64,000 nt of DNA from Halorientalis persicus. GTDB lineage: Archaea; Halobacteriota; Halobacteria; Halobacteriales; Haloarculaceae. Every line of letters starts with the position of its first letter. Positions within the stretch are counted from its first letter, which is position 1. The notes below the pieces were generated by a model. It had not been told where the DNA came from. It saw nothing but the letters and a program-made list of their open reading frames with translations, and searched no databases. Positions 30,597 through 35,761 of the stretch are shown in pieces. The stretch lies in NCBI RefSeq assembly GCF_900110215.1, contig NZ_FOCX01000007.1, positions 62,001-126,000 of the forward strand. The letters are read 5' to 3'. The translations under genes were made by a program, and so were the position numbers.

Positions 30597-32129
30597 TCAG
30601 GAACGGCGGCGTGCGAGCAGGGCGACCGCGACCAGTGCGAGGGCGGCGACGGCGAGACCGAAGCCGGGGCCGTCCACGTGCGAGGTCGTCGGAGCGGTCG
30701 CGGACTGCTCACGATTGCCCCCATCCGTCTCAGTTTCGGTGCCGGGCGGTGTCGTGGTGACTGGCGAGATCCTGGCAGTATCCGATACCGGTTGCCGATT
30801 CGAGCACTGTGGGAAGTCACCACCGGGATAATCGAACCGACCGTCCTCGTCTCGGTCGTAGTGAACGAGTGCGAGAAGTCGAGTGGACCGGTCGAGATCA
30901 GTCGTGAGGTCGACCGAGAAGGCCTGCTGCCCGGGACCGAGATGGTCGCTCACGCCGACCAGCCGCGACTCGGCGGCGCGACGGTCGAGATAGGGCGGGA
31001 AGGAGCACCACCCGGAGTCGTTCCCGAGGGTGAGTGCGTCGATCGACCGCGCGCGATAGAGCGCGACGAACCCCGGATCGGAGAGGGTGGCGGTGCCGCT
31101 GACGGTCCCGTTCGTCGCGTTCTGGTCGTCGAGCGCTATGGAGAGCAGTCCGCCGTGGCCGACGACGGCTGTCACACCCCCACGGAATCCGTCACCTGTC
31201 AGTCGAAGCGTGACGTTCTGTGGGACGTTCATCATGTTGACGCAGGCCGCGAACCAGCCGTCGGCTCTCGTCTCGGTGGTCACCGCAACGTCGAGCGAGT
31301 CGGACTCCGGAGACCGAACGTCGGCATCGATGTCGACGTCCGCACCCGGATAGGCCCGTCCGGTGACGAGCGAACAGCGCCCACTGACACTGAGTCTGAC
31401 GACCGATCCAGCGTCGGTATCGAACGAGATCGGCGGTTCCACGAACCGCCACACGGTCGTGGACGACTGTGCGGTGTCGCCCGTGGCACTGAGGGTCGCC
31501 TCGAAGGCCATGCCCGGGGACAGGGCGGGATCGCTGCCACGCCAGGTGTCCGGGTAGTCGAGGGCGATCCGGGAGACGCGGAACACGAGAAACAGCGTTC
31601 CGTTGCGCTCGTCGGGCACCACCTGGAGCCCGTCGGCCGCGACCGTTCCCGACAGGTTCAGTCGACTCTCGACGATCCCGGCTGGAGTCGAATCATAGGT
31701 CTGTTCCATCCGGAAGTCGTACGATGAACCGTCCAGCACCCGGAGGAAGGTCGTCGCGTCCGATCCGGAACCGTTCGCAGTCGCGACCGCAGTTGCGAGT
31801 TCGGGTGCGGGCGCTTCGATCACGAGGGTCTCGTTGCGCGACGCCGTGGCGTTCCGACGGAGTCGTCCATCGCGCCTAGCCGCGCGGACGGCCGCCGGAT
31901 CGGTCAGGTTCAGAGCGCGGTTCGACCCGACCCACGTCGTCAGGTTCCCGACCGTCGGGGTGGTCGCGTTCGCGGTTTCGTCGGCCGTTTCGTTCGTTAC
32001 CGTCTCGTTCGTCGACTGTACTCCGTCAATCACGGGCGACCCGGCCGCCCCGACGGCTGGCGATCCGGCGAGGACGATCGCCAGCAGTGCCACGAGCGCG
32101 AGTCCCGAGAGTGTCGATTTCAGGTGCAT
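30597..32129 (-). CDS. PGF-CTERM surface glycoprotein with one surface module and a DUF7282-like domain
   Basis: A 510-aa exported protein. The signal peptide (LALVALLAIVLAGSPAVGA) is followed by an Asn/Thr-rich stretch with several N-glycosylation sequons. A module of about 270 residues contains LTDPAAVRAARRDG, FRMEQTYD and VVPDERNGTLFLVFR. A DUF7282-like domain (about 325-445) shows GFVALYRA, GVSDHLGPG and ALVHYDRDEDGRFDYPG. After a Thr-rich stalk comes DGPGFGLA, a hydrophobic helix and LARRRS: a complete PGF-CTERM anchor. The ATG at 32129 lies 9 nt after the restored stop of the upstream gene, so the two form an operon. The domain family names are from recall. Confidence 0.88.
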   Translation of the reverse strand: MHLKSTLSGLALVALLAIVLAGSPAVGAAGSPVIDGVQSTNETVTNETADETANATTPTVGNLTTWVGSNRALNLTDPAAVRAARRDGRLRRNATASRNETLVIEAPAPELATAVATANGSGSDATTFLRVLDGSSYDFRMEQTYDSTPAGIVESRLNLSGTVAADGLQVVPDERNGTLFLVFRVSRIALDYPDTWRGSDPALSPGMAFEATLSATGDTAQSSTTVWRFVEPPISFDTDAGSVVRLSVSGRCSLVTGRAYPGADVDIDADVRSPESDSLDVAVTTETRADGWFAACVNMMNVPQNVTLRLTGDGFRGGVTAVVGHGGLLSIALDDQNATNGTVSGTATLSDPGFVALYRARSIDALTLGNDSGWCSFPPYLDRRAAESRLVGVSDHLGPGQQAFSVDLTTDLDRSTRLLALVHYDRDEDGRFDYPGGDFPQCSNRQPVSDTARISPVTTTPPGTETETDGGNREQSATAPTTSHVDGPGFGLAVAALALVAVALLARRRS

Positions 32130-32138
32130 CAGTGAGTG

Positions 32139-34501
32139 TCAGTGTCGGCGGTGCGCGAGCAGGGCGACCGTGAGCAGCGCGAGGGCGGCGGCGGCGAAAC
32201 CGAAGCCGGGGCCGTCGGCAGTCGTCGTCGGGACGTTCGCGGTCGGCGAACCATCGACAGGCGGATCGGCGATCACGGTCGTCGGCGGGACGGTGGTCCG
32301 ATCCGATCCGATCCCTCAGTGTCGTTCGCGGACGGCGGGCCCTGGAGATTTACGACGGTACCGACGAGCGCGCCGTCGCGACAGACCGGCGGATCGGTCG
32401 TCGGAGCTTCGAAGTCGAACTTGCCGTCCCGGTTCCGGTGGGCCACGGCGATCAGCGCCCGGTCGTCGGCGATGCTGGGACGGTCGAGCTCGGCGTACCC
32501 GTAGCCCGACCAGTCGAAATCGCCCACGGCGAGGTGGGTCCAGTTCGCGACGGTACGATTGATCGCCGACTGTGCGCAGTTCGGCGGTCGAGCGGGGTCA
32601 GTGAGCGCGGTAGCGGCCTCCGGTGCCGCGTAGAGTGCCACGAAGCCAGTGGTGTTGCGGAAGATCCCCCCGATTTCGATCTCGTCGTCGGTCACCGCGC
32701 GGACAGACACGTCCAGCAGGCCGGTCCGGTTCTCGATGAGAACGCCCTCGAAGTCGGGAGCTTCGTCGATGCGGAGGTCCAGCACCGCGTCGTCCGGGAT
32801 GCCGGTCGTATCGGCACAGACCGAGAATCGCCCGGATCGGTTGACCGTGGTGGCGTGGGTCGTCCGGACGGTTCCGTTCCGGGAGCGCAGGTCGACCCGG
32901 ACAGACGTGCCGGGGGCGACCGAGGTCCGTCCCGAGAGGCGCGTACACTGCTGTCCGAGGTCATCGACGACGATACCTGCCGACCGCTCGTCGTCGAAGG
33001 TCACCGTCCGGTCGACGGCGCTCACCCTGACGGCGGACGTGTTCGCAGTCGGTCCGGTACCAACCGTGACGTTTACGCGATAGTCCTCGCCGCCGGCAGG
33101 GGGCTCACCACGAAGGGAACCGAAATCGAGAGCGACGAGGTCCGTCCTGAGTGCGACGTAGAGTGTTCCGTTGTGCTCGTCGGGAACGACCCGGGTTGCA
33201 CCCCTGGCGAGTGTCATCGAGAGGTTCAGTTCCTTCTCGTCGAGCTCGGTCAGCGTCGTGTCCTCGGTCTGTTCCATCCGGAAGTGGTAGACAGACGACC
33301 GGTTCACCAGCTCCACGAACCGCTCGGTAGCCGAGGCGTTCCCGCGAGACAGTTCGATCTGGGTCGTCAGTTCCGGCGCACGCACCGCGAACACCGCGGT
33401 GTCGTTGACCGCGACCGTCCGGTTCCGGGTCAGCCACCCGTACTGTTTGCCATCGTCGACCGCGGCCGGCGACGTGAGGTCCCCGAACCGTTCGGTCGGT
33501 GCGATCCAGACCGCTGGGTCACCGTCCGGGGTCGCGGGTGGGGCGGAAGCATTGTGCCGGACGGGATGGTCGTAATCGTCGTTGAACGTCGCGGCTCCAA
33601 GATGGAACGTCGTGTCCCGATCCACGCCGGTCGTGTCGAGACAGGTGGCGAACTCGCCGGATGGACCGACGGTCGCCCGCGCGGTCGCCTGAAGTCGATG
33701 GGTCTCCGTCGAGCGCAGACGTACCTCGATGTCCGTCCCGGGCGCGGCCGCGGTCTCGCCCGAGACGACCGTGCACGGCTGGCCGAGACGGACGACGACC
33801 GGTTCCCCAGATTCCTCGAAGGCAAGCCGCCGTTCGACGATTCCCCACTCGACTTCCGAACTGGTCGTGGCGTTCCCGCTGGTGAGGGTGAGATTTACGC
33901 GGTAGTCCTCGCCGTCCTCGAACGATCGCTCGCGATCGCCACCGTAATCGAGGACGGCTCGCTCCGTCCGGAGCGCAACGTACAGCGTCCCGCTCCGTTC
34001 GTCCGGGACGACACGAAGCCCGTCGGCCGCGAGTGTCGCCGAGAGGTCGAGTTCTTTCCGTCCCATTCCGGTCGTCAGTTCCATCCGAAACTCGTCAGTG
34101 TCCGACCGACCCAGAACCGCCAGAAACGCCGCCGCGTCCGACTCGGTGTCGTTCGCCTCGGTGACCGCCTCGACCAACCCCGGTGCGGGCAGGCCGAACA
34201 CGACAGTATCGTCCTCGGCAACCGTCCGACTTCGGGTCAGCCAGCCCTCGCGCTTGGCCGCCTGTACGGCCGCAGGCGAGGTCAGGTTCGCGAAGTCGTC
34301 CCCTGGCGCGGTCCAGACCGTGAGGTTGCCCAGCGTCGCGTTCGCAGTCGAGTCGTTTGCAGTGGTCGTGTCCGCGGTCTCGTTCGTCGTCTGTTCCAGT
34401 TCGGCCGCAGTGACCCCGGCGACAGCGACTGAAGACACCGTGAGGAAGGCAACAGCGAGCAGTACACCGACGAGCAGGTGTGTCGTTCGTTCCAGAGACA
34501 T
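32139..34501 (-). pseudogene. Two-module surface glycoprotein, anchor out of frame at a 5-bp tandem repeat (phase-variable or frameshifted)
   Basis: As given, the frame from ATG 34501 stops at 32273 (742 aa) with a non-homologous tail (IGPPSRRRP). The protein has a signal peptide (LLVGVLLAVAFLTV), two tandem copies of the module found once in its downstream paralog (LTSPAAVQAAKREG and LTSPAAVDDGKQYG; FRMELTT and FRMEQTE; VVPDERSGTL and VVPDEHNGTL), and a DUF7282-like domain. In another frame the DNA continues to a textbook PGF-CTERM (TTTADGPGFGFAAAALAL, then LLAHRRH and stop at 32139). The slip falls in TCCGA repeats (32297-32314); deleting one unit or adding two restores the frame. Otherwise the gene is intact, so it is not decayed. 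Confidence 0.8.
32297..32314. repeat. Pentanucleotide tandem repeat (TCCGA x3.6) in coding sequence
   Basis: Three full TCCGA units and a partial TCC, reading GGATC repeats on the coding strand, sit between the DUF7282-like domain and the PGF-CTERM. Because 5 is not a multiple of 3, each change in copy number moves the downstream frame. Two or five units put the anchor in frame; three and four do not. Confidence 0.9.
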
Positions 34502-34582: not shown

Positions 34583-35761
34583 TCACTCCCCGAGAGAGGG
34601 AGTGGCGGCGCAGTTGTTCGGCCCGAGTTCCACCTCGAAGGCCGCGTCGTCGTCCAGCCGTTCGAGGCCGAGATTCGCGGCGACGATGCGCTCGAAGTTG
34701 TCGGGCTGGGGCGGGATGTCCCGCATGATCCGGGCAGTGAACGCCGTCCGCTCCATGTCGAAGACGGGCAGGCGGTCGCGCAGGTCTCCGAGGCGGGCCA
34801 CGTAGCCGCCGTCCGCGGCGGGGTCGGTCCCCTCGCTGTAGTGGCCCGGCGCGACGAGCGTGTCGTCGTCGAAGTCGGCCAACCGTTCGGTCAGCGACTC
34901 GTACAGCTGAGCCGCCAGCGCCTCCGCGCCGCCCTCGCCGCGCTGGAGGTCCGGCCGGGCGACCGATTCGAGGAAGAGGCTGTCTCCCGACAGGAGCACG
35001 TCGCCGACGGCGAACGCGGTCATCCCGGTCGTGTGGCCGGGCAGGTGGACTGCACGGATGGTGGCATCGCCGACCGCGAGTTCCTCGCCGTCGATGATCG
35101 TCTCCACGTCGTACTCGACGCCGCGCTGGACGCTCAGCCGGGGCAATACGGGAGTTGCGCCGGTCTCGGCGGCTAATTCCCGAAGGCCACTGACGTGGTC
35201 GGCGTGGACGTGCGTGTCGACCACGGTCGTGATTTCGGCGTCCCGTGCGGCGGCCGCGTCGAGGTAGCGGTCGGTGAACGCTCTGAGGGGGTCGATCACG
35301 GCCGCTTCGTCGCCGGCGACGAGCAGGTAGGAGAGACAGCCGCTGGCGGGGCGCTGGAACTGGACGACAGTCGCAGTATCGCCGGGGAGTTCGACCGTGC
35401 GGGCGACGCGGGCCCAGCCCTGCATACCGTCGTCGAGGTTGTGGGCGTCGATCCCGGCTTCGGTGAGCAGGCCGGCGACGTAGGCGCTGGCTTCGCCCCT
35501 GCCACAGACGACGGTGATCGGCCCGTCGCCGTCGACCTCGCCGGCGCGGTCGGCGACGCTGTCCTGTGCGTCGGCCTGCAGCCACTGCATATACGGGACG
35601 AGCGTGGACTCGACCGACGGCCCGGAGATCTGCCAGTCCTCGAACTCGTCGCGGTTGCGCACGTCGAGCAGGCGGACGGGATCGCCGGCGGCCAGTCGGT
35701 CGGCCAGCCAGTCCGGCGACCGTGAATCGACCGCCACGTCGGGTTCGGGGTAGTCGCTCAT
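34583..35761 (-). CDS. Rhodanese-metallo-beta-lactamase fusion (persulfide dioxygenase-like)
   Basis: A 392-aa two-domain protein. Residues about 10-115 are a rhodanese domain with the persulfide loop VVCGRGEAS (Cys near 87). Residues about 120-350 are a metallo-beta-lactamase fold with THVHADHVSG, the HLPGHTTGMT His, the DSLFLE Asp and APGH. The layout matches ETHE1/persulfide-dioxygenase-like enzymes fused to a sulfurtransferase; these oxidise glutathione or low-molecular-weight persulfides to sulfite. Here the rhodanese is N-terminal, unlike the C-terminal rhodanese in bacterial PDO fusions such as CstB. A role in sulfide or persulfide detoxification is inferred. Confidence 0.87.
   Translation of the reverse strand: MSDYPEPDVAVDSRSPDWLADRLAAGDPVRLLDVRNRDEFEDWQISGPSVESTLVPYMQWLQADAQDSVADRAGEVDGDGPITVVCGRGEASAYVAGLLTEAGIDAHNLDDGMQGWARVARTVELPGDTATVVQFQRPASGCLSYLLVAGDEAAVIDPLRAFTDRYLDAAAARDAEITTVVDTHVHADHVSGLRELAAETGATPVLPRLSVQRGVEYDVETIIDGEELAVGDATIRAVHLPGHTTGMTAFAVGDVLLSGDSLFLESVARPDLQRGEGGAEALAAQLYESLTERLADFDDDTLVAPGHYSEGTDPAADGGYVARLGDLRDRLPVFDMERTAFTARIMRDIPPQPDNFERIVAANLGLERLDDDAAFEVELGPNNCAATPSLGE

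Follow-up and report, generated by a model that had tools for sequence, protein, structure and literature searches.

Organization of the locus

The window analysed here is a 64,000-nt stretch of contig NZ_FOCX01000007.1 of Halorientalis persicus. On its minus strand, an ORF of 742 amino acids (32273..34501) encodes a surface glycoprotein with two BGTF-type surface domains. The N-terminus was judged by eye to be a Sec-like signal, and the two BGTF stretches matched NF045517 with 58.0 bits (cut-off 40). The C-terminal residues of the ORF are ANDTEGSDRIGPPSRRRP (GALVGTVVNLQGPPSANDTEGSDRIGPPSRRRP), followed by the stop codon. The gene is flanked on the same strand by a downstream paralogue of 510 amino acids with an intact PGF-CTERM anchor (30597..32129) and by an upstream neighbour encoding a rhodanese / MBL-fold metallo-hydrolase (34583..35761), which was also found at loci L002, L003 and L005. 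In the plasmid collection, this neighbouring MBL gene alone was matched, among the matches listed.

The stop codon of the 742-aa ORF lies approximately 21 codons upstream of a PGF motif and is separated from the ATG of the paralogue by 143 nt, instead of 9 nt. A first-pass annotation of this DNA had described a gene open for 742 codons that then loses its anchor to a frame slip. Both the ORF and the out-of-frame tail were recovered in the present analysis, and every one of the coordinates checked was correct.

The detached PGF-CTERM tail

The tail occupies a separate minus-strand frame of 58 codons plus a stop (32139..32315; TIGR04126, PF18204), which runs without interruption from 32315 to its stop codon at 32139-32141 and reads GIGSDRTTVPPTTVIADPPVDGSPTANVPTTTADGPGFGFAAAALALLTVALLAHRRH, or SDRTTVPPTTVIADPPVDGSPTANVPTTTADGPGFGFAAAALALLTVALLAHRRH from the tandem array described below onward. 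It comprises a Thr/Pro linker (TTVPPTTVIADPPVDGSPTANVPTTTADG), a PGF motif, a hydrophobic stretch and an HRR end. The tail scored 33.7 bits against NCBIfam TIGR04126 (curated cut-off 24.5) and 21.1 bits against Pfam PF18204 (curated cut-off 18.8). Of the 58-codon stretches in the two other frames of this gene, 27-57% contain no stop, so the openness of the tail alone is unremarkable; it is the PGF-CTERM match and the orthologue, not the 58 stop-free codons, that place the tail beyond chance.

Archaeosortase A (ArtA) cuts and lipid-anchors PGF-CTERM proteins (PMC8875312, PMC8559796), and this genome carries its gene (TIGR04125, 253.9 bits; contig C63). The window gene shares with ArtA substrates the N-terminal signal (judged by eye), a Thr-rich linker, the PGF motif, the hydrophobic stretch and the basic end. 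It differs from them in that the signal lies one 5-nt unit out of frame with the body, whereas the corresponding signal of a sister-species orthologue is in frame. As assembled, therefore, the product carries no anchor signal in its frame, as the earlier annotation had stated, and the tail itself is real.

The tail contains no stop codon, and its dN/dS against the orthologue was approximately 0.70, compared with 0.63 for the tail of the intact paralogue. Together with the high PGF-CTERM score and the conserved 9-nt junction to the paralogue, these values point to a recent loss of the frame. Among the 22 PGF-CTERM tails of this genome, the 58-aa frame is by far the shortest open frame; in six sister species, the tails listed lie in frames of at least 236 aa, with one 117-aa remnant as the exception.

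Ancestral reading frame

A syntenic orthologue with 66% identity was found in a congeneric sister species (G003, locus L002), flanked in the same order by the rhodanese/MBL gene and by an intact copy of the downstream paralogue. It forms an unbroken frame of 801 aa that ends in DGPGFGALGTVLAVFTVVLIARRRN, and its tail matched PGF-CTERM with 26.9 bits. The orthologue sequence ANDSKGPTRTTLGSTT aligned without gaps to the window sequence read with two repeat units (ANDTEGSDRTTVPPTT), and no tandem repeat was present at the corresponding site of the orthologue, where the sequence is GCGAACGATTCCAAAGGACCGACCAGAACCACC. In both species exactly 9 nt separate the stop of the tail from the ATG of the paralogue; in the window, where the 9-nt gap had been noted before, these positions are 32139 and 32129. 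The unbroken orthologue, its gap-free alignment to the two-unit form and the shared 9-nt gap indicate a derived tandem duplication of +5 nt in the window. On the evidence of one orthologue at 66% identity and the integrity of the tail, the anchor tail is accordingly placed in frame in the ancestor, as a recently functional signal that now appears detached. In its two BGTF stretches and in the synteny of orthologue and paralogue with a sister species, the window gene is like other BGTF haloarchaeal proteins (NF045517), but its C-terminal anchor lies outside its reading frame.

The TCCGA array

The array (32297..32314, minus strand; GGATC on the coding strand, TCCGA on the plus strand) was resolved by TRF as 3.6 units with a 100% match over 18 bp, and it contains an extra unit relative to the ancestral frame. 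From the window alone, the slip could lie anywhere in the overlap of the two frames, at about 32276-32315; it is localised to the repeat because the orthologue alignment narrows this overlap. The earlier placement of the slip in the TCCGA repeat is thus borne out by the gap-free alignment with the two-unit form. With its 5 nt the unit is not divisible by 3, and it lies inside the coding frame, so gain or loss of a unit toggles the frame as at an SSR locus. By arithmetic, -5 or +10 nt restores the frame, in agreement with the previous proposal that a change from three units to two or to five rejoins it.

Repeat statistics were obtained from a 466-kb sample of this genome and from an order-3 simulation of 5 Mb. 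The 18-bp array was the longest period-5 array in the 466 kb, and no longer array of period 2, 4, 5 or 7 was found in this sample. Arrays of at least 18 bp occurred once in the simulated 5 Mb (~0.2 per Mb). Two-unit arrays of at least 13 bp occurred 9 times in the 466 kb and 127 times in the simulated 5 Mb (~25 per Mb). The two-unit 13-bp array is therefore at chance level, and the three-unit 18-bp array is rare. Across eight genomes of the genus, GGATCGGATCGGATC (GGATCx3) occurred once, at this locus, and was absent from every other genome. In viral contigs, neither a relative of the protein nor an exact match to the 21-base two-unit stretch was found. Since chance supplies the two-unit precursor, the third unit would be the remnant of one tandem-duplication slip, and nothing indicates a maintained tract.

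Origin of the frameshift

The two-unit form matches the ancestral frame exactly, as would also be expected if the true gene had two units, intact and anchored, and the third unit were an assembly or sequencing error. The genome is a draft of 121 contigs, in which another tandem repeat is interrupted by a gap of N (contig C44). However, the 18-bp array should be far shorter than any read, so that collapse or expansion of the repeat is not expected, and the gain of a whole 5-nt unit would be atypical of read errors. In addition, few other frame breaks came to light when orthologues were surveyed across about 290 genes and 290 kb of coding DNA. Antisense ORFs and over-extended 5' ends made up most of the initial hits; after filtering, few candidate breaks were left, with two or three putative ones on contigs C62 and C60. 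The small number of breaks argues for good base quality and for an assembly that is not riddled with frameshifts. The first-pass annotation named such an indel as its main alternative; it keeps a modest but appreciable share of the probability and is not favoured, given the few breaks in about 290 kb.

The two frames overlap by approximately 40 nt, a space in which a programmed frameshift of the ribosome (-1 or +2) or slippage during transcription might yield both forms of the protein from one allele. No slippery heptamer or homopolymer was seen in the overlap, the RNA structure was not unusual (fold z = +1.36), and the orthologue, with its single frame, needs no frameshift. A programmed frameshift gene was accordingly rejected, and recoding of either kind is regarded as very improbable.

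The tail DNA of the two paralogues was compared between the window (30597-30746 and 32139-32288) and the sister species (L002:1339-1488 and L021:1294-1443). The paralogue tail matched the first gene of the sister species unusually well (112/133), with a shorter match to its own orthologue (82/101), which suggests exchange of tails between the tandem paralogues in these sequences. Recombination between the two tails, instead of slippage, could likewise be imagined as the source of the frame error. The linker is gap-free against the first-gene orthologue through and just past the repeat, however, and a perfect extra unit is explained most simply by a slip, so this origin is scarcely credible.

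Pentanucleotide repeats are known to control bacterial surface proteins by SSR phase variation, as in Neisseria Opa with its CTCTT repeats. The window gene shares with these systems a pentanucleotide repeat in a surface-protein gene, where the number of units sets the frame; it differs in having only 3.6 units in a tract that is not conserved, and in the position of the repeat, which lies close to the 3' end and not to the 5' end. By the same logic, the TCCGA tract would change length at a high rate and toggle the protein between an anchored form (2 or 5 units) and a released form (3 units); a phase switch between two such forms had been proposed in the earlier annotation. A switch of this kind would fit the unit length, which 3 does not divide, the exact coincidence of lesion and array, the perfect preservation of the out-of-frame tail, and the target, a surface protein, which is the usual class. 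However, at 3.6 units the tract is very short to be hypermutable, the two-unit ancestral state is at chance level, the orthologue has no repeat, the other genomes of the genus lack the tract, and the 466 kb of genome held no longer array of the periods searched. Background indel rates in haloarchaea are also low, at 3.6-4.8e-11 per site per generation in mutation-accumulation lines, in which pentamer tracts were not singled out (PMC9997560). Phase variation by definition is a demonstrated, reversible change at a high rate (PMC11868660), and the paper that gives this definition warns that tracts near the chance limit are indistinguishable from accident. The short tract, the orthologue without a repeat and the chance-level precursor thus speak against a slipped-strand switch, to which we assign only a small chance.

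Other PGF-CTERM genes and detached tails

On contig C63, beside the archaeosortase A gene, an S-layer-type BGTF/PGF-CTERM glycoprotein gene contains an in-frame TAG (L028:2295-2297). The position is Gln in three sister species (G002, G003 and G005), and past the TAG the frame is intact, with a PGF-CTERM tail of 47 bits. Two anchor losses by unrelated types of mutation would make relaxed constraint or a laboratory strain likelier than a repeat-based switch.

Another detached tail was seen in the sister species G006 (L124:1200-1596), where a PGF-CTERM tail lies behind a small lipoprotein-like ORF but in a different frame, open for 117 aa; no tandem repeat was seen at this break. A PGF-CTERM tail in a short frame (146 aa) was found in G059. 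Three further candidates were rejected as detached tails: L134 (174 aa) is a natural small protein, L072 is intact, and L077 is interrupted by a gap of N, which lies inside a GSDDSDGND-coding tandem repeat of a PGF-CTERM protein (contig C44, near 268201) and is a gap of the draft assembly. In this genome, two S-layer-like genes (L073 and L074) whose PGF-CTERM ends are almost identical lie on short contigs (C109 and C105, respectively); their tails are intact in the stretches read, and a transposase-like ORF adjoins one of them.

Proposed course and implications

In summary, the frameshift is probably an ordinary, recent loss of the anchor by one tandem-duplication slip, specific to the lineage or culture, and not an evolved switch. 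The ancestral BGTF surface glycoprotein gene would have carried a PGF-CTERM (archaeosortase A) anchor signal at its end, and a single slip would have added one GGATC unit in the lineage or culture of this genome. With the stop approximately 21 codons ahead of the PGF motif, export of the product should end in its release, without ArtA processing or lipid-anchoring. Translational coupling to the paralogue may suffer from the earlier stop as well, with a lower coupled expression of that gene. The change would be neutral or mildly selected, and is possibly a minority allele or a laboratory variant.

A limited literature search found no described case of phase variation by repeat slippage in an archaeal surface protein. 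If a switch did operate here, it would be the first as far as this search shows, and ArtA anchoring would be toggled, with consequences for interactions with viruses and neighbours. On the preferred reading of a single recent slip, the locus would offer a clean natural loss-of-anchor allele and a caution for the annotation of PGF-CTERM proteins from single genomes.
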